NCBI RefSeq assembly: GCF_001632365.1
Contig: NW_024468524.1
Location: forward strand, 299,129 to 312,598
Reading direction: 5' to 3'
Length of the DNA: 13,470 bases
Source of the DNA: Laetiporus sulphureus 93-53
Taxonomy: Eukaryota; Basidiomycota; Agaricomycetes; Polyporales; Laetiporaceae
Under the pieces are notes generated by a model. The model searched no databases and was not told the DNA's origin. It saw nothing but the letters and a program-made list of their open reading frames with translations. Made by a program: the position numbers and the translations under genes. Positions 1-13,470 of this stretch are shown in pieces. Numbering within the stretch: the stretch's first letter is position 1; every line of letters begins with the position of its first letter.

Positions 1-58
1 TGCAGGTCACAAAAGCAGACTTGCCCTTAATTGGGTTAAGTGCTTTGGTGCTTTGTGA
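1..58 (+). repeat. Left terminal inverted repeat of the large element
   Basis: It begins TGCAGGTCACAAAAGCAGAC and is the reverse complement of 13160-13217, with one difference in 58 bases (G at position 18 here, A in the right copy read inward). It contains the internal near-palindrome CTTAATTGGGTTAAG. The repeat may extend left of the window by one or more bases. Confidence 0.95.
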
Positions 59-105
59 CACAATGCTTCTAGAATGTTGCCTCTCTGTCGCATGATTGAG
101 CTCAT

Positions 106-3100
106 TTAGTATAAGCGGTTCTCAGCTCTAGTGCCAGAAGACTCATGGGGTACTTTTGCGAGCACGATGTATGAGCAGACTGTTGGTCCTGGCACTGCTC
201 CATCATGTGAATCACTAGCAGCCAGTTCGAGCGCAGGGCTGCCTAGCAGTGCAAAACCATCGTCTGCAAGATTATTATCTCCTGCATCACTGTTGGGTTC
301 GACTATTGAATGGGTGTATCAGCTGATGCCATTGTCAATCATCAAACCTCTCACGTAGACTTTCATGTTCCGCAGATAGGCAGGAACCCTCTAGTAATCC
401 ATGATCGGAGAAGTCGACATGTGATGCAGCAAGCTTGTCAAGACGCTGATTTGTCAATAGCATCTGCCCCAGAGCATTATAGCGATTGAACTGCCACCAC
501 GGTTCTTTGACAGCTGTGATGTGCTTTGATTCGGTGATTGACGTGCACAATCCATTTGGTGTGCCGTATTCCCAGATGAGGCATTTATAGTGCTTGAGCG
601 AATGCTGTCTCAGAAGAGAGAAGCCATCGATGCAAACACCCCACTTCTCGAAGATGATGCGGTACTGATGGAAGCGAGTCAATGCATCTTCCAGTGCTTC
701 CAGGTTTGTTGGCACATATACGTTGCAACGTGCTATGTAACAGAACTTGAGAAATGCTCGAATTGCCCGAATCATGTCTGGAGGGACATATCCAACAATT
801 GCAGGGAGCCACACCTAAGTATAGGGAGCATGTCAGCATAAAAGATCAACTCTATTCATACGACAGCAGATTGCATCACCTTCATCAAAGCTTTTAAGTC
901 ATCACCTGTCCACTGCTTAAAGCCATGACCCTCGAGAAATTGGCGCAGTCTGGTGAATGCAGGGATGGAAGCAATTCTGATGATTATAAGCTCCTGTCAA
1001 GCCAACAAGGGATCATAACTCACCACCGGTCAATGTCTGCCATAATCACCTTTGCCTGAGCATTGCCATGCGTGATCGAAAAGTACTGTTTGACCCAGTC
1101 CACGAGATGATCTTTGAAGGTCCTCTTGATCAACTGGTGAAGAAGATCGGAAGACAGCATTTCATGGATATTAGCGCATGGAAAATCATTCGTGAATGGC
1201 TGTATCAGGTACAACGAGATTTGTTAGTAAATACACCATGGCACGAAAGCATACAATGTGTTACAAATAGCTAAAGACATACCACTATGTCTCCGATGAT
1301 GCCATAGTCTGCCCAAAGTTCACCCAGCTCAAACTCTCTGACAAGCAACTCAGTATGTTTACACGAGTGTCGTCCATTTGCACCGCCATCAAGGTCCATC
1401 TTTGATGCTGTGCACCTGCATACGTGTAAGGTTTCAATTCAAAACCTTGTAAGGATACTACGACTCACTTTGGGCACCAGCCTTGTATGATGCAGGCTAG
1501 CAGTGCTTGCTCTGGATAATCTGCAATATAAGGCCCAAGTCTATATAAAACATGCCTGAAATGTCCGTCTGAACAGCGAACGACTTGAGGGATGGTCATC
1601 CCGGGCTTCAAACTCTTCAGTATGTGTGATAGTGATGTATGGAACAGCTGACGGCGAAATTTCCGGAAGTCCGGGTCATTCGTGTATCTTCTATCAGCTG
1701 CAAGTATGGAGGTCAGAACGGGCAATGGCTTTTCGAAATTCTAGGATCTGAACATATTTACTCTTCAGAATTGCCAGAAAACTGATCAATGCAACAGTGT
1801 CACGATGCACACGTCGCACATTATTATGCGGGTTACCAATGCTCATGTACAGCGGGTAGTATTCATTTTGACCAGTGGCTACAGAGACGGTGGTCTTATC
1901 GCTTCCGAGGATAATTGGGACAAATGATGCACCATGCATCTTCTGGTCCTCCGCGATAGCATCCTAAAATGCTATAAACTATTTGCGTCGAATGCGCAGA
2001 CTATATTGGATCACGTACTGCTTGTCTCCAGGCTCAATCACCTGACATGAAGTCCCTGAGCTGGCGTTCATCATTGCAGAATTCTCTGAAAGGGGAGTAA
2101 TCCATCTCGCCATCAAAATCAGGATTTGCGAGAATGTTATTTGCAACTTCTTTAGGATCCCAGAACCAAATGTCACACTGTGCAGCCATTCATGGTGGTA
2201 CATCACCGTCAGGATGCTCACCCTGGTAGCTCAATGTAAAACTTTGCCATTTCACATCACCGACCTCTGTAGAGTCGATGAGATGATACAGTTCCTCGGC
2301 ATTCCGAAACGGTGCTTCATTGCCGTGCTTCATAACATGGGCAGCCCAGAGGTGAAGTAGGATGTTGATGTTACCGGCTGACATCTGTTCATGCTTGAAC
2401 AGGAATTCAGCGAGCTCGAATTGAACCCGATTTGCATATGGAGCATAATCGCGGGATGCCTTCGTCAGTCGAGGGTTTGGTCATGTATTCTCTGGCAGGA
2501 AGTGGCCGTTCTCATCGCAAGGTGTTCCTGCTACCATCAGCTTTTGCCAAATAAAGTCAATGCATGTACGAACCATTAAGCTTTGGATGATATTCTCGGA
2601 CGATGTCTCACTGATCTTCTATATGCTCATAGCTCCCAATGTCACCATCACTGTAGAAGTCAATGTTCTCATGGCCTTCAGAGGTGACAAAGCTTTCGTG
2701 GTGCGCACTTTCTGATCTTGCACAGGTTTCATCATCGTTCATGCTTTCTTGATCAGATGATACGCTTGGTGGGTATGGTTGGTCTGAGAGGTCTGCCCTT
2801 CGCTGCAATATACCACTGTTATCATCTATCACATATGGCGTATCATCACATGAGATGCGCTGCAAGCAGAAATTGTTCATACCGTCATAGTGACCATTGC
2901 GCCGTCGGTCTTGCCTGTCATACTTCGGTGAGGATATCTGATCAACAGCTCGATGCTTGTAAGTGTACTTGCTGTCTTCACTCAGACTACGAGGTCTCTT
3001 GCATGCTACAGAAGGTATGTTGTCTCCATTCAGTGCATTTTCAATGTGACGAAGTCCTCACTGGAATGTCGCTTATTGGGAGACCTAATGGCGTCTTCGT

Positions 3101-3212
3101 GGTATAGAAGATCCCCATGGGTGACACGACGGTGCTTTGTTCGACCTGCATTGTTTTGAAAATGCCTGCCGCAGCCAGGAAGGTCACACGCAAAGGGAAA
3201 TATGTCTGACAT
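106..3212 (-). pseudogene. Plavaka-type (CACTA-related) transposase, multi-exon, decayed
   Basis: The chosen start is the ATG at 3212 (MSDIFPFACDLPGC), directly before a C2H2 finger with spacing C-x4-C-x12-H-x4-H (about residues 8-32). An acidic, low-complexity linker follows, then the conserved transposase core. Recognisable blocks are ANRVQFELAEFLFKHEQMSA (about 2400), GASFVPIILGSDKTTVSVAT (about 1900), the LKPGM and GPYIADYPEQALLACI blocks (1500-1620), FTNDFPCANIHEM (about 1180), WLPAIVGYVPPDMIRA (about 800) and SITESKHITAVKEPW (about 520). These are typical of basidiomycete Plavaka transposases. Short introns fit at 2531-2611, 1964-2018, 1698-1761, 1416-1468, 1200-1282 and 815-879; one more lies near 1023. 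The gene is broken: in-frame TGA at 2481-2483, 2190-2192 (a Trp position) and 2034-2036 (also Trp), a frame change between the finger exon and 2880, and a frame change after the stop at 335. A short tail (VPGPTVCSYIVLAKVPHES) continues to a stop at 106, so the usual C-terminal extension looks truncated. Family call is confident; exact exon edges are approximate. Confidence 0.9.
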
Positions 3213-3539
3213 GGATGAAACCAGCAGAATGGATGGGGCGACACTGCAGCACAGAGGAAATGGCGATGCATAACACCAACCCAAGCCAGTCATGCAAAGT
3301 CCAACATTTGGCTAAATGGAATATTGTACAAATGCGGATCGACAGGACTCGCTTCAAACCATTGGGGCTGCTAGATGCAGAAGAGGCTTTCAAAAGGGGA
3401 AATGAGGATTAAGTAACACTACAGTTTAGAGGGCTAGGGTGTGAATGAACCTTGGTTGTTCTCTCCCCATCGTGAATGCACAGTTTCTGACACAACCTCA
3501 CCCTACATTCCAACCTCCTCACTCCTCACTCTTCTAACA
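3213..3539. promoter_or_regulatory. Divergent intergenic region between transposase and DUF6532-like gene
   Basis: These 327 bp separate the start codons of two genes that point away from each other, so they probably hold both promoters. The side next to the plus-strand gene is a pyrimidine-rich tract (CCAACCTCCTCACTCCTCAC, about 3509-3528) ending just before the ATG at 3540, which has A at -3. CT-rich leaders of this kind are common before fungal start codons. No convincing TATA box was found. A shared promoter would co-express the two element proteins; this is inferred from layout only. Confidence 0.5.
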
Positions 3540-5914
3540 ATGTCAGTTGTAACCCACACTGCCAATGCTGAAAAGCATCCTGGAAGGGTCCTGGCCATGA
3601 CACCCAGACATAGCTCAGTGGAGGTTCAAGCAGACAAAGAGAGGAAGCGCGAGATGAAGGAGCAGAAGGAAAACAAGACGAAGCATGCAGTGAAGAATAT
3701 TGCGAGCCTAGAGAACAAGATGGCAGATGAGGATATCAGTGAAGAGCTTAACAGGGTCACTAAGCGGGCCAAGGTCAAGACAGGGCAGCGCAGGCACGGA
3801 GGTCGTAGTAATGCAGAAGGCACAGTAGCAAAGCCAGCGCAGATGCAGCATGCTCTGCAGCCTAAGTGGAAGATGAATCATGCTGATGACAAGTTTGAGA
3901 AGATAGACCTTCCAACATCAGACTCGGAACAGCCACGCAAGAGGCAGAAGGGGGTAGATGAACGTCCCAGAATTGCGATAGAGAGAGCTCGACTTGAAGG
4001 AAGAGAAGTGCCTGCACGTCACAATGATGACAAAGGCAAAGCGCCGAAGCGTACTGGTGTAAGGTCAGTGCTACTCTTTGTCTCTGTGCTGCCACAGTTA
4101 TTCTCGACGATGTTTGTATTCATAGTGCACCAGCCCAGAAGACCCGTACTGTGCCGTCAGGACCTCTTCATGACTGGCAGAGCTCCGCACTGGCTCCATG
4201 GAAGCTTGGATCGATGACCTCTGTTCCTCACTTTGCAACAACTGGCCTGCAAGCTGAAACAGCTGATGGTAAGACTGACGATACTGTTTCATTTTGGATA
4301 GTTCCATCGAGACAAAATGTAGGCAGGCGTAATGCTGAAGTCACCGGAGTTCTCGTGCAAGAAACTGGCTTCGCCAGTGATGACAGCGAAGGTGCCGAGG
4401 AGACTGCTGCCCTCTCGAGTCCCATCAAAGGTGCTGGTACCCAATTGACCAGTGCAGTGAGTGTCAAAAAGCTCCTCTGATGTAGTGCTGATGTCATCCA
4501 TGTACCAAGGGACTCGTCAAACTTGATGAGGACAGCGATCTAGAGGCCACGCCTTTTGCGAGACCCATTTATTCGAAGGTGATATAAGACAGAATGTTAT
4601 CCGTATTTACACTAATCCTGGACTAGGGAAGGAAGATCCATTTTAGAGATGAGTCAAACTATGATGTAGATGATATGTCGCAGCCAGTACGGTTGAAGCG
4701 AGTGACAAATGATGTGCATGTCTGTCTGTTCTGTTCTTTGTGCACTCGATGATTCATATGATTTTATAGGATATCGTGAAAGTTGAGGACCACGCTAGCA
4801 ACTTGGAGGATGCCGATAATGATTCTGAAGACTATGAGGAATCTGTCAAGTCCTCAAACAATGGCCACACAGTCACTATAGGAAGGCGCCCCAACTCGAA
4901 GAAAGCAAACTTACCGGCTGGAGCTAATGACGGCGACCGCTTCACTCGTGTTCTCATCCCCACTCTTCATCAATATGTGGGCAGTCTTCGAGAGCCATGG
5001 GCCGTGAAGGATGAGAAGCTTGTGCATGTGCTGCAGCTCATCTGGAAGGCCATCTACCCACAGATTCCATACATCATTAAGCATCATGACCATGTTTTTA
5101 ATATCGTTCAGTCTTCATGTCTGATCTCGAGATTCTCTTCACTGATATGAGGGTTTTACAGGCTACCCAATGACTTTATGAATGGCGCAGTGGGTTTGGT
5201 ACCTCTGCACTAGCTGTCCTCGATCTCCTTTATGGACGTTCACACTGCACTACTGAAGCCGAGTGCCAGAGGCTTGCAGAGCATTGGAAGGAGAACATGC
5301 GCTTCGTGTATGAGCACGCTGACAGAAGTCCCAAGGTTCATGTATAACATTCACTGATGGCCATGAAATGATGCATATGATGCCAAACTCGCACAGCAAT
5401 GGACAGGACTGTTCCATTCTGAGATCATTTCTCGTCTCCTTGGAAGTCATCTCTCAAACATTAGAGGTGCCATAAGCGACGTGCCGAATTTGATGGATAA
5501 GAACGTGCCACCGGTCAGTGCCATTGGCCTGGCAGCTTCGGCGGTACATGTGCAGGCTGTGATAACTGTGCTTGTGGCTGATTACCTTGTATACAGATCG
5601 AACGCGCTCTCACATTCTGGACAACTGGTATCATGTTCTTGCAGAACGGTGAATCCAAGATGCTTAAGAACACAAACCCAGCATCTGGCAAACTCACAAC
5701 GGCTACAGCCTTTGGCGAAGATAAGTATGCCAAGATGACGAAGTCTTACTCTAAGTTTGCACTCGATCTTCCACCCAAGAAGATGGCGAAAGTGATCGAG
5801 TGTGCCATTTGGTACATGAAAGCTGGTACCAGGCATGCCCCAATCGAGATAGATGATGACGAGGAGGATGATATGCATGCAAAGCTTGCCGATGCTGGGT
5901 CTGATTCTGAGTAA
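3540..5914 (+). pseudogene. DUF6532-like element accessory protein, multi-exon, decayed
   Basis: The first ATG of the open frame is at 3540 (MSVVTHTANAEKHPGR). The N-terminal exon to about 4058 is highly charged, with Lys/Arg/Glu runs (KERKREMKEQKENK, EQPRKRQKG), and is probably disordered and nuclear. A GTAAGG donor at 4059 ends it. A second coding-like stretch in another frame runs to 4480. After a GTGCATG..TTTTATAG intron ending near 4769, the conserved part begins: FTRVLIPTLHQYVGSLREPW, then LYEWRSGFGTSALAVLDLLY (5174 on), then ISRLLGSHLSNIRGAI and PVSAIGLAASAVH, an intron at 5550-5596, and ERALTFWTTGIMFLQNGE, ending in an acidic tail (IEIDDDEEDD) with TAA at 5912. This order matches the DUF6532 family found repeatedly in basidiomycete mobile-element regions; the family name is from memory and its biochemistry is not known to me. 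A TGA at 5171-5173 sits where Arg is expected (CGA to TGA). Roughly 4481-4700 and 5345-5397 are degraded or intronic. Confidence 0.7.
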
Positions 5915-7295
5915 CAGGGAAGCTTCTGAATAGGTAAGTAACCTGTTCTTGATGCCAGTGCTACGTGAGTGCTCAGCTATGCATTCAGAATGGTCAATGA
6001 TGACATCATATGTTGTTAAACTGAGATTCCTGCGTGTTCTTTGTCTGGCTTTTGTGATCCCAGTCCATTCCTTACATCCTTTTACCCAGATTGTACAATG
6101 TTCTCGTGCACTGCTTTTGACGTCTTTTCTGATAGCTAAAGATTTCATTTCACTCTTATGCATTGACTTTTTGTGCGCTGATGTACTTTGTGGCTTACAT
6201 TCCTCACATATTGACCTTTCGATCTTGCTGGATCCATGTGCGACTCGCCACCATCTGAATGTTATTATTTGTCTTATTCAAACCTTTTCTATGTCTTGAT
6301 TTGAGTTTTCTGCATGCGCAAAGTGTGAAAAGCTCAGGAGCTCCACCAGCAATAAAGGAATGTGAGCGTCGATAAGTCCGGTAAGTCTGCATAAGGTATG
6401 GACTGAATACATTTTTCGAGCCTTGACATTCCTGCTGCTTTTAACCGAGTGCAAAAAGTCGATGGAAAGTAAGAAAAGCATTGAGATCTACTTAGAGTAT
6501 GTGAGACTGATCTGCCCTTTCTCACTCAGAAAAGGTGAGAAAAATCTTATAAGTCAGGTAAAGGGTGCGAAAAGCCGGAGTTAGATTTTCCTGATGCGAG
6601 GATGCCAAGAGGCCCAAGGCGTCGTGCCATACTGCTGATACACTCCATTTACTTTCATATTCCTCTGCGATGAATGGTGCAGAGTCAGCAGATTCATCTT
6701 CCTCTGCGTAGCATTGCTCGACTGGAACGATTCAGGAGAATTCCATGCCAGCTTTGAAGTTCTTCAGATGTTGCAGATTCCTACTCAGATGTTGTTCATC
6801 TGTGCGTTCACTTGAAGAGAAGGCTGGCATTCTTTTCATGCTGTAGTTTGTTCCCTCTCTTCAACTGGGAGACCGGAATGCATTTCGTTGCCCCTCATAG
6901 TGGAATGGAGTAATTGGGACATGGTTCATTACCCACTGCCACATCCTAGGCATCAAGACCCATGTGGTTGAGCTATCAACATTGCCCTGTCTCCAGACTA
7001 ATGTGGAACGACATGCAACTAGCACCAACATGAGTCGCACATCAACCGAGAATCATTTTCATGTACAGAGCATCGCTCATATGCTCCCCCAGACAATTTT
7101 TCGCAGGTCATCCTTCTCTGCACCCACAGATCTTTATGTATCCAGTCGAACGAGCCACACGTGATTGTCTCCTTCCTCACATGTGATGTCCTGCGCACGC
7201 TATTCCACTACTGCATCTCGCGGATGCTCCCTCCTGACTCTGCCTCTGACAACATGTTCTCACATATTTCTGTCTGCCTCGTGGCAGTGCATTAG
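5915..7295. other. Gene-poor stretch downstream of the DUF6532-like gene
   Basis: No recognisable gene was found on either strand. The first part (to about 6300) is T-rich on the plus strand and begins with a GTAAGT at 5935, consistent with a 3' untranslated region. From 6300 to 6600 there are several short GTGNAAAAG-type motifs (near 6325, 6451 and 6566) and a hairpin with 8-bp arms (6518-6525 and 6535-6542). From 6600 to 7295 short coding-like runs occur, for example an acidic minus-strand run near 6660-6720, but none extends far enough to identify. It may be decayed cargo older than the fragments to the right. Confidence 0.4.
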
Positions 7296-7301
7296 TTGGC
7301 C

Positions 7302-7764
7302 ATGCCTATCAGCTCCGTGAGGGGTGGCTTCAGTCCCGGTGTGCGAGAGTTCATTTTCACGTGTGGTAGGCACGGCATATGGATCGAGCACAGATGGGGC
7401 AGCGTGAGGAGGGGTGTGGTGGGGTTCATCACTTCCATTGATCTTCTCGAGGAAGAGCCAGATTCAGAGAAGGTGCCGGAGCAGCAAGCTGATGTTGAGT
7501 TGCTAACCGCGACCATAGGAGAATTGGATGATGAAGCAGAGGTCGACTGGTAGGATAGTGCCAATTGCCATACGATAGGAAGGATCGATGATCTACGAGG
7601 TCAACTCTTACGACCTGCACGATACATGAACTCAGCTGTGAAGCGCATACGTCTGATGGTACCTAACGGTCATTTCTCAGATGATATCACTCATCGTGCA
7701 TTCTCCGAAGCAGCAGGACGAGTCATTCTTGGAACAAGGAACAGAGATATTCAATACCTTTGAA
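7302..7764 (+). pseudogene. Unrecognised ORF interrupted by one in-frame TAG
   Basis: An ATG at 7302 opens a frame that runs through an acidic stretch (LEEEPDSEKVPEQQADVELL) to a TAG at 7551-7553. The same frame then continues open for about 70 codons to a TGA at 7762-7764, with a coding-like basic segment (DDLRGQLLRPARYMNSAVKR, then RLMVPNGHFSDDITHRAFSE). The in-frame continuity across the stop suggests one former coding region of about 150 residues, or two exons joined by a small intron around the stop. I do not recognise the family. It sits just outside the captured-gene block and may be another captured fragment or an old element gene. Confidence 0.35.
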
Positions 7765-8029
7765 CGGACTCTCTGCTCTGCCACATTGTTCTGTTTCTGA
7801 AAGCAGTGGATTATTACTCCTGTATACAATACCTACATCACTGACTATGTAGCAACATATATCACAGCACATTTCAGTAGAATTGCGCTGAATGCAAGTC
7901 ACTGGGACGTGCTTAGACACGAGGTGCCCTTAGGCTCAATGCGAGCTTGACCCTTGCAGATGTTGGCCTGTGCCCACCCATCAACACAGAGTCAGTACCG
8001 AATGAGCGCACAAATCTGAAAGCAAATTG
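7765..8029. other. Spacer without recognised features
   Basis: Short open frames exist on both strands, but none shows recognisable motifs. The minus-strand frame of the argininosuccinate synthase fragment runs on to a stop at 7981-7983, but its similarity to the family ends near 8030, so the left capture boundary is probably in this spacer. Confidence 0.4.
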
Positions 8030-9342
8030 CGCTTTTTGATGCAAATGGACTCAATCTGGATGAAGCCCGTCGCACCGGTCGGCTCGAAGCTGCCGAGCTC
8101 ATCCATCGAGGACTGCTTCTCATTATAAAGAACCTGTAGTAGGAGAGCATGAGCGAGAGCCATGTAGAGACAGCTCAACCAACAAACCTCCTCTGACAAC
8201 TGGCCCTCCATGACAAATGGACCCTTGTACAGCTTGAGGCAGATGACGCCGTTCACGGTTTGCTGACTGCTCAGGATCGAGCTCACCATGAACTCGCTCT
8301 TGGCTCGGATATGAACCAGCATTGTACAGGATACAGTTAAGCTCAACGGTCATGAACTGATCACGAAGTGCATGGATGTTGCGGTCGAGTGCGAGGCCCT
8401 CGATGTCTTTGTGTGCGACACGGAGGATCGTCGCCGCAGGTGACTTGTAGCACCCACGCAATTTGATGCCGATGAAGCGGTTCTCGACGATGTTGATGCA
8501 CCCAATGCCATGCCTGCGCATGAGCGCATTCAGCGTGATGAAGATCTCAACTGCATCAGTGTACTCTTCTTCTACGCGGGGACGATGACCTTGATGGGGA
8601 GGCCATGCTCAAAGTGGATCGAGATGCGCTCGGGCATGTCAGGAGCATTCTCGGGTGTGGTGATGAGCTTCCACATGTCGCCGGGGGTGTGGTGTTGGGG
8701 TCCTCAAGGTGCCAGCTTCGTGGGAGATGTGGAACAGGTTCTCGTCGGTGGAAAATGACTTGACGGTGGTCTGCTGGACGGGTATCTTCTTCTCTGCTGC
8801 ATAGGTGAGAAGTGCCTGGCAGCTCACGAATCAGTAGTAGGACTCTAAGACAAGGCATCATCATCACAATGAATGAAGGAGTGCAAGCAGTAGCATACCG
8901 GAAATGCACCAAGGTGCGATCACCTTGATGTCGGGCTTCAAGCCGTAGAAGGCAAATCCGAAACGGACTCAGTCGTTGCCCTTGCCAGTGCAGCCGTGCA
9001 AGATGAAACTGTGTTGCAATTGGTATCAGCCATGAAACAGCACACTGAGGACTTTCCCGCAATCCCCTCTGTCAGCAATGACCATCATTTTGCAAGCGAT
9101 CACTTGGTGATCGAGAGACGTTCTGGGGAGGTAGACGTTCTGAGAATCGCACAATCAATTTCAGCAGCAGTTTGAGTACGAATGTAACAACCTCATAAAT
9201 GCAGTTTGCCTGTACTGCAGGATGAATGAGTTCCGTCACGAACTTGCGCTTCAAATCCTGAGAGGTTTAGAGGGATCTAGTCAGCTCACTGCCTTTTCAG
9301 ATCCAGACTGTGTTACCTCAAAGAAGAACCTCTTCGTGCTGA
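8030..9342 (-). pseudogene. Captured fragment of argininosuccinate synthase (lacks N-terminus)
   Basis: Argininosuccinate synthase joins citrulline and aspartate using ATP in arginine synthesis. Diagnostic blocks appear in the right order: KRFFFE then DLKRKFVTELIHPAVQANCI (9192-9342), NVYLPRTSL, CTGKGND then VRF, LKPDIKVIAPW, LLTYAAEKKIPVQQT, STDENLFHISHEAG, RHGIGCINIVENRFIGIKLR, ALDRNIHALRDQF, TVNGVICLKLYKG, SSMDELGSFEPTGATGFIQI. Introns with GT..AG ends are kept at 9258-9316, 9140-9191 and 8134-8187. The fragment begins about 50 residues into the protein, so the ATP-binding AYSGGLDTS motif at the N-terminus is absent. There is an in-frame TGA (8969-8971) inside the GKGNDQVRF motif, a premature TAG near 8570, and frameshifts near 8690 and 8310. 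Several expected Arg residues are Cys (APWC, GIGC, VICLKL, ESIC). It cannot encode an active enzyme. The corresponding yeast gene is ARG1. Confidence 0.92.
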
Positions 9343-9500
9343 CTACAAGTAGTGGGGAGATAAGGGAGACTGAGGCCAGCTTTTGGAGGCAATCTGTCAT
9401 GTTCGAAAACAGATCAGCACATACAGCGGAGTGAAAGATGATCATGCACCAAGGCAGCCTTTCCCAGCCCGGGGCTCGTCAGATGTATAAATGCACTGAC

Positions 9501-9800
9501 CTTGCAGAAATAGTTCCTGTACTTGAACACCATTTCCACTGCCTGTGCCACATCTACGACAGAGCAAACATTCAGCTTTGGACTTCAGTAGACTACAGGT
9601 TAAGACACCTTCAGGATAGTCTCCATTGACATGCAGTACTGGTGCATTGATCATCCTGCCTATGTCCGACGAATGCAGTCTCGAATGAGCACTAGATGCC
9701 GGAGTTGTGTGACTGATGCTGTCAACAGCGTAATGAATGAGTTAGATAGCTAGATAGGTAGAGGCTGCATACGTACCTATTACTGGGTAACAGATTGAGG
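9501..9800 (-). pseudogene. Captured fragment of a 2-oxoacid dehydrogenase E1 (DHTKD1-like)
   Basis: Two exons are visible. Exon 9609-9718 reads ISHTTPASSAHSRLHSSDIG then RMINAPVLHVNGDYPE. A 55-bp GT..AG intron follows (9554-9608), then exon 9501-9553 reads DVAQAVEMVFKYRNYFCK, with the Asp codon split across the intron. TTPA..RS.L.SSDIG and HVNGD.PE.V mark the thiamine-diphosphate E1 family. The TTPA and SSDIG wording fits the DHTKD1 branch (2-oxoadipate dehydrogenase, lysine breakdown) better than classical KGD1, which has TTDPR and ASDIA. A further, degenerate exon end may lie at about 9780-9800 before an intron at about 9719-9780. Only about 50 residues of a protein of around 900 are present. 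The last residues, YFCK instead of YFRK, show the same Arg to Cys change seen in the neighbours. The catalytic residues are mostly missing, so it cannot be functional. Confidence 0.8.
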
Positions 9801-11612
9801 ATTTAAAACGAATCAGCATCAAGCCAGGCGGTGTAAGCTTGGATCCAGGTGCCATCATCGGCATCCTTGCACTTGACAATCCTGCCCACGTGAAGCACGT
9901 GAAGCCATTCAAGGGCCTCCTGCCTGTTATTGATCCCCCAAATGTCATTGGGAACAAGCCACATCAGCGCCTCCATCACTACTTGAACATCCTGAATGAT
10001 ATTCTGGACGGCTTCGACAACCAGGCAATCATGGCTTCTACCTTTAAGGACCTCATCTCGATGCTCGAGATCCCAGATTTGCCATTCTCAGAAGTGTCAG
10101 CCATCCTGTCGACGTTGTCTGGTTGAATATCTTCGAAGCTCGAGGACGGCATTCGTGCTGCAATCGAGACTGCATGAGGTAAAGGTGATGCGACTGAGTT
10201 CCCGGCGGTGTGCATCAACAAGCTCATGGAGCACTTCATGGAGGACAACATCTGTGCACAGGACCAGCTGATGTTCTGGACACAGCTCAGTGCACTGTTT
10301 CTATGGCGAGCAGGGCAATGATGTTAGGTACGAGGAAAGTGTGATATTTGGATTACTCGTTGCTCATTTGCTTATAGACAACCATCTGCGGATGTGCTGA
10401 GAGAGCTGATCGACTCGAGATATACAGCGTATGACATGCTGCTGACATTCTGTAATTTCCATGAGCAGTGGGTCACATTTGGTGTGTATCAGCAGCTTCT
10501 CACCATCCAATTATTGACACGCTCGGTATTCAGCTGCACTGGAAGTCTATGTCAGGTGTGCATACCGTGCCTACAGCTTGCTATCTATCGATTACGAGGA
10601 AGGTGATGGTCTTGATGACAGAGATGCTCCTCACATCGTCATCTGGCGATTCAACCTTCCTCAGTTACTCTCGCCACCTACAACTCCTAGCCTGTAAGTG
10701 TATCGTGCATGGCTATCCTATTTTCCTATACGAAGGCTGAGATAGTTGTCTAATGCCAACGTTGCTCACAGGCAGGCATCCGTCAGCGATCTGACATACA
10801 TGATCAACAAACACCAGAAGCAACCTCTGCGTACTGGTGTCATCGCATCATTCCCGAATTTTGCGGCACTGACGAGGGGCTTCGACAAGGTCACAAGCAC
10901 CCTGCCGCCATTTGATGTTCAGGAGTACCACGAGCAATACGGAGCTAATAATCAGCCTCCTAATGTCCTGGATATGGCGCTCAGAATCTTCAAGGAGATC
11001 GATGACTTGTCGGTTAGTGCATGGTACAAGAAGGCCCATGAACTGGTTATCCAGCAGAGCCATGTTCTCGCTCAGCATGGTGTTCGACTCTTATCTGCAG
11101 ACTCAGCTTGTACCCGCAATACTTCACTCTGCACAACATGAGCTCATCCTGGGAGGAAGAGCAGGCCATCTGTAATGTTGAGCCAGCACTCACATACCAG
11201 CTGGAGCTCAGCCGGTTGTCAAACTACAACCTTACACCGTGCTTCACGGAGAGCAAGCAACTCCACATCTACCATGCCATCATGCACGAGAACTAACTGG
11301 ACAGCCAATTCTTTATCTGAGCTCTTGTTCGGCCTGGTCGCGTCCGTGGCGACATGAACACGGCCAAGTACCTGATCTCCGAGACCGATCGTCTTGTAAC
11401 GAACATCCTGGACACCCTTGAGGTGGTATCCGCCCAGCACAGAAATGCGGATGTCAACCATATCTTTATGAACTTCATCTACAACCTCCCTGTCACTTAT
11501 GAGGATGTCCTCGAGGCGATTGCAGGATTCATTGAGTGGCATGGCAAGCACCTCTGGCATCTGCATGTCACTGAATCGGAGATCCATATCGTTCTCGAGG
11601 ACAATGAAGGCA

Positions 11613-11619
11613 ATATTAT
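11613..11619 (+). repeat. Left target-site duplication of the nested element
   Basis: ATATTAT stands immediately before the nested element and is repeated at 12980-12986 immediately after it. Deleting the element plus one copy makes the acetyl-CoA carboxylase frame continuous (EDNEGNI joined to MPIRCIVEN). Confidence 0.8.
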
Positions 11620-11692
11620 CAGGTGTAGCTGTCATTTTTATACATGAAACGGCTGTCCGTGTAGTCCAGGTCTGATACATAAATGACTCTAA
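11620..11692 (+). repeat. Left terminal inverted repeat of the nested element
   Basis: It pairs with 12908-12979 in reverse complement. The outermost 16 bases differ at two positions (CAGG versus CACC), and the inner block TGATACATAAATGACTCTAA matches TGATACATAAATTACTCTAA. Identity over the whole repeat is about three quarters by eye with one or two gaps, so the copy is older than the outer element's repeats suggest, or the repeats are naturally imperfect. Confidence 0.85.
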
Positions 11693-11844
11693 AGTCCCTT
11701 GTAGTCAGTTAATGTATAAGCAATACATCAAAAGCAGCTCACCTGTATGCTTGATGTATCACCAATGTATCAGGCCCCAGGCCACCTGGATTGTGTGATG
11801 TATCATTGATTGTGATCGAAAAAGCTGAGGGTTTGGTGATACAT
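11674..11844. repeat. Left subterminal cluster of GATACAT/ATGTATC motifs
   Basis: Copies occur at 11674-11680 (GATACAT), 11723-11730 (variant AATACATC), 11753-11760 and 11797-11804 (GATGTATC), 11765-11772 (ATGTATCA) and 11838-11844 (GATACAT), in both orientations. Subterminal arrays of short motifs are the usual transposase-binding sites in hAT and CACTA elements; that role is inferred here. Confidence 0.6.
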
Positions 11845-12782
11845 TATGAAGCTGCCACACTTGACAAACAGCCAATCAGGTGCTCGCAAGTATTTCCTTT
11901 CTCGGTCCAGTCAAGCATGTGACATAGCATCCTTATATGGGCAGAATGTGGCTGTGGCCGGCGCGGCAGAAAGAACACGATCATGATCGGAGTCTACGCT
12001 TCATTGATCGATCAATGGGAGGCCGAATATTGCTCATACTGAAAATGCGATCTGTGTAGTTTTGGAAGCTACAGATGTATTTTACATATTATTGAGGCAA
12101 TGTAACACTTCACAATGATGGTTTACATGCTAACAGAGCTTCTGAAAGTATTTTGAGAGCTCACATGAATGTGAGACAGGATATATTGCTTGAATTGCAT
12201 TGGGTAAAGCCTGATGCCACCGGAAATGAAGCCTTTGAGTCTTGTGCGCTTTCGGAGCTAAAGTCATCGCTTGTCACTAACTTGTGTTTTCAGTATGCAG
12301 CCAATCCTCAACAGATCCTTACTGCATATTCATACATTGCTATGGCAATGTTTCCTCCCTGAAAAACCTCTCTGACTCTCTTCAATTGAACTCTTCCAAC
12401 TCTGTCATTTTAATACATTTCTCCTTGGGCTTAACAGAATTAGTGTATGATTTTACCAGTAGCTCAGGTAATATAAGGTTATTTCTTATGCCTAAAAATA
12501 AGCATAAGATCTGAATGTAGAAGGCCGCAAGGTGTAGACCTATAATGGCAGCGGGAGTGCATCAGTATTGCCAGCCACACCAGGTGCACCGTGGGATGCC
12601 AGGCACCGTGGAACTTCACCATATAAGGCTGCTGATTCAGCCGCTTGAGAAAGGAAAGCTCCCAAGCACCTGATTGGGTGCTGCTGCTGCTCGGCCCACC
12701 CAGCATGGGCCCGCATTATATGGGAAGGCGCATCAGAAGGTGTGGGTACTGCACTGTTATATCTGTCCAACTTGTACTTGTA

Positions 12783-12927
12783 ATGTATCAAAGGGCAGGA
12801 AAAGATACTTCTGGTATGATACATCAAGGCAGATGGCACAAGGTAATATATCACACAGAATGATATATCAAAGCTCCGGAAAGCTCACCTGTAGGCCAGA
12901 CACTCGATTAGAGTAATTTATGTATCA
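12783..12927. repeat. Right subterminal cluster of GATACAT/ATGTATC motifs
   Basis: Copies occur at 12783-12790 (ATGTATCA), 12818-12824 (GATACAT), 12862-12869 (variant GATATATC) and 12920-12927 (ATGTATCA). The word AGCTCACCTGTA is also present once near each end (about 11747 and 12883) in the same orientation. Confidence 0.6.
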
Positions 12928-12979
12928 AGGCTATACTACAGTGACAGCAATGCATGTATTATTATGACAGCTACAGGTG
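12908..12979 (-). repeat. Right terminal inverted repeat of the nested element
   Basis: Reverse complement partner of 11620-11692. It ends ATGACAGCTACAGGTG at 12979, directly before the second ATATTAT. Confidence 0.85.
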
Positions 12980-12986
12980 ATATTAT
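12980..12986 (+). repeat. Right target-site duplication of the nested element
   Basis: ATATTAT, identical to 11613-11619. The acetyl-CoA carboxylase coding sequence resumes within it and continues with PIRCIVEN. Confidence 0.8.
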
Positions 12987-13159
12987 GCCGATTCGCTGCA
13001 TCGTCGAGAACCTCTCCGGCTTCATCGTAAACTATCACGGCTACCAGGAGATCACCACAGACAAGAGTACTACAATCCTGAAATCGATTGGTGAGAAAGG
13101 CCCTCTTCATTTGCAGCCAGCTCACCAACCGTATCCGATCAAGGAGTCGCTGCAGCCTA

Positions 13160-13217
13160 TCACAAAGCACCAAAGCACTTAACCCAATTAAGGGCAAGTT
13201 TGCTTTTGTGACCTGCA
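13160..13217 (-). repeat. Right terminal inverted repeat of the large element
   Basis: Reverse complement of 1-58 with a single mismatch. It ends TTTTGTGACCTGCA at 13217. The acetyl-CoA carboxylase similarity stops about three bases before it begins, so the capture junction and the repeat are practically contiguous. Confidence 0.95.
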
Positions 13218-13470
13218 CAAATGATCCCACATAAAAAGCCTGCCACAAGGGCTAGGCTGAGGACACGCGCAGTGATATGCAGTCTGAAAAAGGGGCTCAA
13301 AGGGCCCTTAGCCTTATGCTCACAACTAGGGGGTGAATTGGCTTGTTAGGCCGCATGCAATAGAATAATGAATCTAAGATCCTCCCTTAGATCCTTATGG
13401 GCTTTATATACATGTAGGGCAGGGCCCCTGGCACTGTGCTACTGTGAGACCTCAGATACCTACATGTGAA
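13218..13470. other. Right flank of the element; possible LTR-like end from 13344
   Basis: No gene is visible. From 13344 the sequence TGTTAGGCCGCATGCA, followed by a short imperfect palindrome (TCTAAGATCC and TTAGATCC) and a TATA-like TTTATATAC at about 13403, resembles the start of a Ty3/gypsy LTR from a basidiomycete. The window ends before a second end, primer-binding site or coding region could confirm it. Treat the LTR reading as a guess. Confidence 0.2.

Follow-up and report, generated by a model that had tools for sequence, protein, structure and literature searches.

Does the 13,470-bp window analysed here, a stretch of contig C15 of Laetiporus sulphureus 93-53 (G000:C15:299129-312598), contain one gene-capturing transposon? 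The preliminary description had read positions 1–13217 as a single 13.2-kb Plavaka element of the Pack type, bounded by 58-bp terminal inverted repeats (TIRs) and carrying fragments of three host genes as cargo. This is not borne out, since the 58-bp repeats are the 5′ ends of long terminal repeats (LTRs). The anatomy of the window is very probably that of a nest of separate events rather than of one 13.2-kb transposon, and the window holds a previously unknown element of Plavaka subgroup B (PlavakaB) with a patchwork of copied host genes beside it. The genome searched comprises 38.6 Mb in 124 contigs (coded C1 and so on below); part of its DNA was unread, and genome-wide copy counts are lower bounds.

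The matched repeats themselves are as first described: positions 1–58 and 13160–13217 are inverted copies of each other with 57 of 58 bases equal (98%). The 58-mer has 58 matches in the genome at three mismatches or fewer, the window's two included, against none for a reversed-pattern control, and it lies within the opening 60 bp (TGTCACAAAG...) of a longer repeat, which finishes in ...TGTGACA and measures 984 bp in the reference copy. Thirty of the 58 matches were read with their flanks, all of them exact and one of them (L028) the window's left copy; of these loci, nine are masked, one lacks a far end that can be recognised, and the remaining 20 are readable across. Among the readable copies, 12 are solo LTRs with a perfect 5-bp target-site duplication (TSD) and one more retains four of the five TSD bases. 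Four others continue into a common internal start (CTACCC...) and three have a common internal upstream sequence (TATAA before TG); each of these seven appears to form one edge of a longer element. The LTRs have TG..CA ends with the TSD flush against the repeat, and on C24 two copies in direct orientation enclose an internal region of about 2.2 kb within a single outer duplication, ACATT preceding the 5′ copy and following the 3′ copy. Pairs of same-strand LTR ends 3.1–3.2 kb apart occur on five contigs (C14, C24, C29, C30 and C69), of which the C24 pair alone was read whole.

A DNA transposon similar to PlavakaA, whose ends are given as TGT..ACA in PMC12730594, was considered for the ~984-bp repeat and is ruled out by the 5-bp TSDs and the direct-repeat pair on C24. 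The TG..CA ends, the 5-bp TSDs, the many solo LTRs and the ~2.2-kb internal region are shared with TRIM/LARD-like LTR retroelements. In the parts of the C24 copy that were read, the open frames listed span 89–98 amino acids. We take the repeat to belong to a short LTR retroelement, possibly a small non-autonomous one of this TRIM/LARD-like kind.

Each 58-bp repeat of the window forms the 5′ end of an LTR copy of its own, about 984 bp long and read in part. The left copy (1–60, minus strand) agrees at 60 of 60 bases with the beginning of the LTR at the 30 loci, which were chosen as exact matches, and its body extends leftward beyond the window. The right copy (13158–13470, plus strand) extends rightward beyond it and shares 94.2–98.1% identity with the 12 copies that align over 311–312 bp; its alignments with the remaining copies are shorter, at 79.5% (L032) to 98.9%. 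The two copies face outward, which gives their 5′ ends the appearance of a long inverted repeat. They are ruled out as Plavaka TIRs because the LTR bodies extend away from the supposed element and are not part of it. The case is a caution that outward LTR ends can imitate a long, near-perfect inverted repeat.

A single transposon moving its captured genes as a unit between 58-bp TIRs would account for the 57/58 match and for the presence of a Plavaka transposase and captured pieces between the repeats. The preliminary description proposed a search for further copies with the same ends and different cargo; no second copy of the composite, with the same or other cargo, was found in the genome searched (a lower bound), and the copies of the 58-mer are LTR ends, many of them solo with 5-bp TSDs. 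It also held that repeats never pairing elsewhere would count against it. The five same-strand pairs at 3.1–3.2 kb are element-like; three more pairs are seen, one on the same strand (C7) and two divergent (C98 and C15). The C98 pair (8734–8791, plus strand, and 18742–18799, minus strand) is a second divergent pair, 10 kb apart with its interior unread, and counts in favour of the single transposon. Against this, 58 copies placed at random would by chance give about 1.1 pairs, in any orientation, at a distance of 13.2 kb or less, and the Plavaka element in the window has a right end of its own at 6596. We regard the single transposon as highly improbable.

The Plavaka component of the window is the right-hand part of a decayed subgroup B element (61–6596), colinear with an element on C40 over the transposase and its companion gene. 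A Plavaka-type transposase had been claimed between the repeats and is confirmed there on the minus strand (335–3311), where the genome scan gives four PF18759 matches over the cut-off. On reading-frame pieces of the window the same profile matches with E-values of 2.4e-30 and 4.5e-28, and a third piece, at 2.7e-05, misses the cut-off. Three of the four genome matches carry read-through stop codons, some of which could be introns, and the gene is probably a pseudogene; its N-terminal C2H2 finger is weak (16.5 bits against a cut-off of 25.2). Its diverged relatives on C40 and C22 share 66–81% DNA identity with it over matching pieces. The right terminus of the element, ATTTTCCTGATG at 6585–6596 (minus strand), agrees over all 12 bp with the termini that pair up on C40 and C22 and is correctly oriented; the window has a single exact occurrence of this inverted terminus, about 0.7 kb past the companion gene. 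No left terminus with fewer than three mismatches is present in the window, where the best candidates have three. Since the C40 element has its left end about 1.2 kb ahead of the counterpart of window position 411, the left end of the window's element is expected to the left of the window, and the left LTR would sit inside the Plavaka element.

All of the host-gene pieces lie outside this terminus, the first of them beginning at 6657, 61 bp past the Plavaka end. The right end at 6585–6596 thus precedes the supposed cargo, and the Pack-type arrangement of cargo between paired ends, as first claimed, is not found in the window. The content of the patchwork was described correctly: it comprises fragments of three unrelated primary-metabolism genes, for argininosuccinate synthase, a DHTKD1-like 2-oxoglutarate dehydrogenase E1 and acetyl-CoA carboxylase (ACC). 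Their donors remain elsewhere in the genome at three unlinked loci (on C6, C32 and C15:433–436 kb), and the contiguous cargo in the host genome that the preliminary description had set against its own reading was not seen.

The leftmost of the gene blocks (6657–9350) is a copy of C6:32294–35128, at 83.0% and 83.6% identity, and was identified from Pfam matches of copy and donor. It contains the 3′ part of a neighbouring gene, which at C6 is probably an F-box gene, together with the C-terminal coding part of the gene for argininosuccinate synthase (minus strand), the latter with a clear PF20979 match. For the donor synthase, the closest named sequences among the best 120 of 5887 protein matches are from Agaricomycetes such as Daedalea, Trametes and Grifola (87–89% identity). 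A filler of 139 bp without a genome match (9351–9489) separates this block from the next gene piece; the genome search found no donor either for it or for 6597–6656. Positions 9490–9830 are a copy of C32:347638–347979 at 88.6% identity. The piece in the window alone matches E1_dh at an E-value of only 0.28; the C32 donor has a Pfam E1_dh match and matches to PDB chains, the best of them listed as DHKTD1 (= DHTKD1), and this locus reads as a gene for a 2-oxoglutarate dehydrogenase E1, with DHTKD1 as its nearest counterpart. The last piece (9830–13157, plus strand) copies the central part of ACC from C15:433391–435839 at 91.5, 92.1 and 94.9% identity, with a clear PF08326 match. The junction between the C32 and ACC pieces, with about one shared base, is the sole junction that can be placed precisely. 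The copies lack about 485 bp of the ACC donor (at window position ~10300) and 73 bp of the donor stretch on C6.

Two insertions interrupt or bound the ACC copy. Comparison with the donor at both edges delimits a 1.36-kb TIR element, CAGGTGTAGCTGTC...GACAGCTACAGGTG, at 11620–12979, flanked by the 7-bp TSD ATATTAT (11613–11619 and 12980–12986); its CAGGTGTAGCTGTC ends look hAT-like. Diverged relatives of this element were seen on C43 and C71. The right LTR cuts the ACC copy after GAGTCGCTGCAGCC. Copy and donor agree up to the very base before the LTR, and the donor reads straight on; to judge from this edge, the ACC copy was most likely longer when the right LTR entered it.

The pieces appear to have been copied as DNA. 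A retrocopy origin was judged for the C6 block alone and is ruled out there, because the block takes in portions of two opposite-strand genes together with the DNA between them. Mismatches of the CpG-decay type make up 22/40, 49/87 and 2/9 in the three ACC stretches, 147/371 in the C6 block and 15/38 in the C32 piece. Differences at first and second codon positions are fewer in the ACC exon stretches (9830–10300 and 12983–13157; 23/430) than in the synthase exon (window 8101–8800; 51/462; Fisher p 0.002), and the C32 piece (38/341) differs from the mixed ACC stretch at 10301–11619 (87/1311; p 0.008). These differences in divergence suggest separate copying events, possibly of differing age.

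Two other origins for the patchwork have to be weighed. It could be the cargo of a larger Plavaka element that has its working right end past the right LTR; the terminus at 6596 would then be a former end, now internal, and the patches would still move with the transposase. The patches do begin only 61 bp past the terminus, and the elements on C40 and C22 described below show that host-gene copies can lie inside Plavaka in this genome. However, no second terminus in the right orientation with fewer than three mismatches occurs in 6597–13157, and the composite is single-copy as far as searched; we consider this origin quite unlikely. Alternatively, the patchwork could be the cargo of a transposon, such as a Helitron, that is unrelated to Plavaka and was there earlier, with Plavaka jumping beside or into it. 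Helitrons are recognised by a Rep-helicase and a 3′ hairpin with a CTRR end. Tandem fragments of unlinked genes resemble Helitron cargo, and 60 bp of DNA not derived from C6 separate the Plavaka end from the patches. There is no positive evidence for such an element, Helitron proteins and ends not having been searched for, and we rate this origin as rather unlikely.

With the identity of the LTRs, the right end of Plavaka, the donors and the order of the pieces as fixed points, the nest may be explained as follows. A PlavakaB element, consisting of the transposase and a head-to-head DUF6532-like companion, ends at 6596, and copies of pieces from three unlinked loci lie just past that end. The most likely route, in which we place about as much belief as doubt, is repair of breaks near the transposon that copied ectopic templates, by template switching or filler synthesis and perhaps in several rounds; a general habit of this genome of patching breaks with copied DNA is possible and is included in this explanation. 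The 1.36-kb TIR element would later have entered the ACC copy, and LTR retroelement copies would have inserted on the left into Plavaka and on the right into the ACC copy, which presumably resumes past the right LTR.

Several observations weigh against this account. The right LTR starts with TA and not TG, and the window covers neither LTR whole, nor their TSDs, nor the continuation of ACC past the right LTR. In the subterminal DNA of the window's Plavaka element, divergence is so great that only the 12-mer can be aligned with C40 or C22. The gap in divergence may come from faster evolution at the C6 locus, and the C32 piece and the C6 DNA outside the synthase exon do not differ (38/341 and 251/1825; p 0.22). 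The data do not show a causal connection of the patchwork with Plavaka, or that host-gene patches favour Plavaka.

Support for the capture of genes by Plavaka in this mushroom comes from two other places, on C40 and C22, and capture is not shown for the window; the wider idea of the preliminary description is supported at those loci and not at the one for which it was proposed. We examined seven Plavaka loci (C15, C40, C22, C38, C24, C52 and C2, the last read only about half) and saw both ends in four. The C40 element (110576–122507, 11.9 kb) is flanked by GA on both sides and the C22 element (488555–504273, 15.7 kb) by TG on both sides, and homology between them begins at the first base of the terminus CATCAGGAAAAT, a sequence with 32 exact matches. 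Similar ends with one or two mismatches, and TT on both sides, delimit the elements on C38 (5.16 kb) and C24 (7.0 kb). All four fit PlavakaB as it is described in PMC12730594. No termini were found at C52.

The host-gene copies on C40 and C22 lie in an intron of the transposase, which is about 80 bp long in the window and about 4.6 kb and 3.9 kb long on C40 (112577–117150; L063 and L042) and C22 (about 490550–494440; L065 and L043), with its acceptor side still recognisable. In both elements the intron holds a copy of an aconitase gene in the orientation of the transposase, supported by Pfam matches on C40 (PF00330, E 7e-23; PF00694, E 1.3e-05) and on C22 (PF00694, E 6.4e-19). The copy shares 80–88% identity with C42:104190–106675 and 72–84% with other aconitase-like places on C42, C28 and C111; the C40 and C22 versions are about 75–80% identical to each other. 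Only the C40 element has, inside its aconitase copy, a 1.35-kb piece of a coatomer-delta gene, which matches its donor at C10:619709–621039 with 91% identity; the donor was named by PDB chains 5mu7_B and 5a1u_H. Short filler borders this patch on either side, and about 16 bp of the sequence present on C22 are replaced. Host-gene copies thus lie between matched termini with TSDs at two sites: the capture occurred in a transposon that is present at both, and one acquisition is older and one younger.

Two of the four elements with both ends seen carry host genes, through one capture shared by descent and one later patch. The extra DNA of the C24 element matches high-copy short repeats, and no host gene was recognised in it, as judged by pattern without translation. 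The C38 element is compact and was compared with the other elements only. As an ancestral and a later capture can be told apart in them, C40 and C22 form a pair of loci in which the process can be studied.

The window's companion gene (3541–5914, plus strand) stands head to head with the transposase and is colinear in tblastx with the companion on C40. Its assignment as DUF6532-like, made in the preliminary description, is upheld in part: a hand-spliced translation barely passes the cut-off (24.3 against 24 bits), and the exon-by-exon scan of the genome for this domain lists neither the window's gene nor the C40 and C22 companions. That scan gives profile matches to PF20149 (DUF6532) at five places (C24, C52, C12, C38 and C2), four of which (C38, C24, C52 and C2) are head to head with PF18759 matches 1.5–2.9 kb away; no Plavaka match lies near the C12 place. 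No DUF6532 match lies near the weaker Plavaka matches on C6, C67, C35, C41, C30, C49, C9, C12 and elsewhere on C2, and one weaker match on C24 lies 5.3 kb from the DUF6532 match of that contig. In total, a transposase stands head to head with a DUF6532 or DUF6532-like gene at C38, C24, C52, C2, C40, C22 and window positions 335–5914. DUF6532 appears in a published list of domains next to Plavaka and is not named in the main text of PMC12730594. Such a recurrent partner suggests a function that can be tested for this uncharacterised domain.

Plants provide the best-known cases of Pack-type gene capture. The present loci resemble Pack-MULE and Pack-CACTA elements in that pieces of unlinked host genes were copied as DNA beside or inside a cut-and-paste transposon, and C40 and C22 carry such pieces between paired ends. 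They differ in that the pieces in the window lie outside the transposon end and in that the C40 and C22 elements retain the transposase gene, with the cargo in its intron. The C40 and C22 elements suggest that Pack capture of the plant type can occur in mushrooms.

Relative to PlavakaB in PMC12730594 (CMCT clade), the elements agree in the PF18759 transposase, the terminus CATCA..TGATG and the 2-bp TSDs at C40, C22, C38 and C24. In the window the transposase matches PF18759 and the right end is exact at 6585–6596, whereas the left terminus and TSD are outside the window. The head-to-head DUF6532-like companion and the copied metabolism genes in the transposase intron (C40 and C22) set the elements described here apart from that account. 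Gene uptake as such is known, as the same source reports TET/JBP genes taken up by Plavaka. Beyond that uptake, no published case of Plavaka gene capture was found in a search that left most subscription papers uncovered. Plavaka TIR motifs are reported in a supplementary figure of PMC8290104, and Helitron gene capture has been described in Pleurotus (PMC4289320). PMC9674265 reports a deletion at a Plavaka element, with loss of flanking DNA and not a clean excision, which fits breaks near Plavaka elements.

A broader proposal, which we put forward tentatively and with more doubt than confidence, is that PlavakaB repeatedly takes up copies of unlinked primary-metabolism genes through gap or break repair at the moving element, as whole genes in the intron (aconitase at C40 and C22, followed by the coatomer-delta patch at C40) and as patches at the right flank (synthase, DHTKD1-like E1 and ACC in the window), and would form a gene-shuffling system of basidiomycetes with a DUF6532 protein as its standing second gene.

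Some further features of these families were also observed. The C22 element has about 5.3 kb of extra DNA near its right end (498450–503785), with no Pfam match in four frames and about 1.7 kb of the stretch unread. There are at least five aconitase-like places in the genome (C42:104–121 kb, C28:170 kb and C111:8 kb), three of them about 7 kb apart on C42, which is perhaps a large set for a fungus. Finally, 222 bp on C12 (24669–24890; L073) lie between two exact Plavaka termini, with an ambiguous TSD (CGTG or GT); this locus is probably a miniature non-autonomous derivative.

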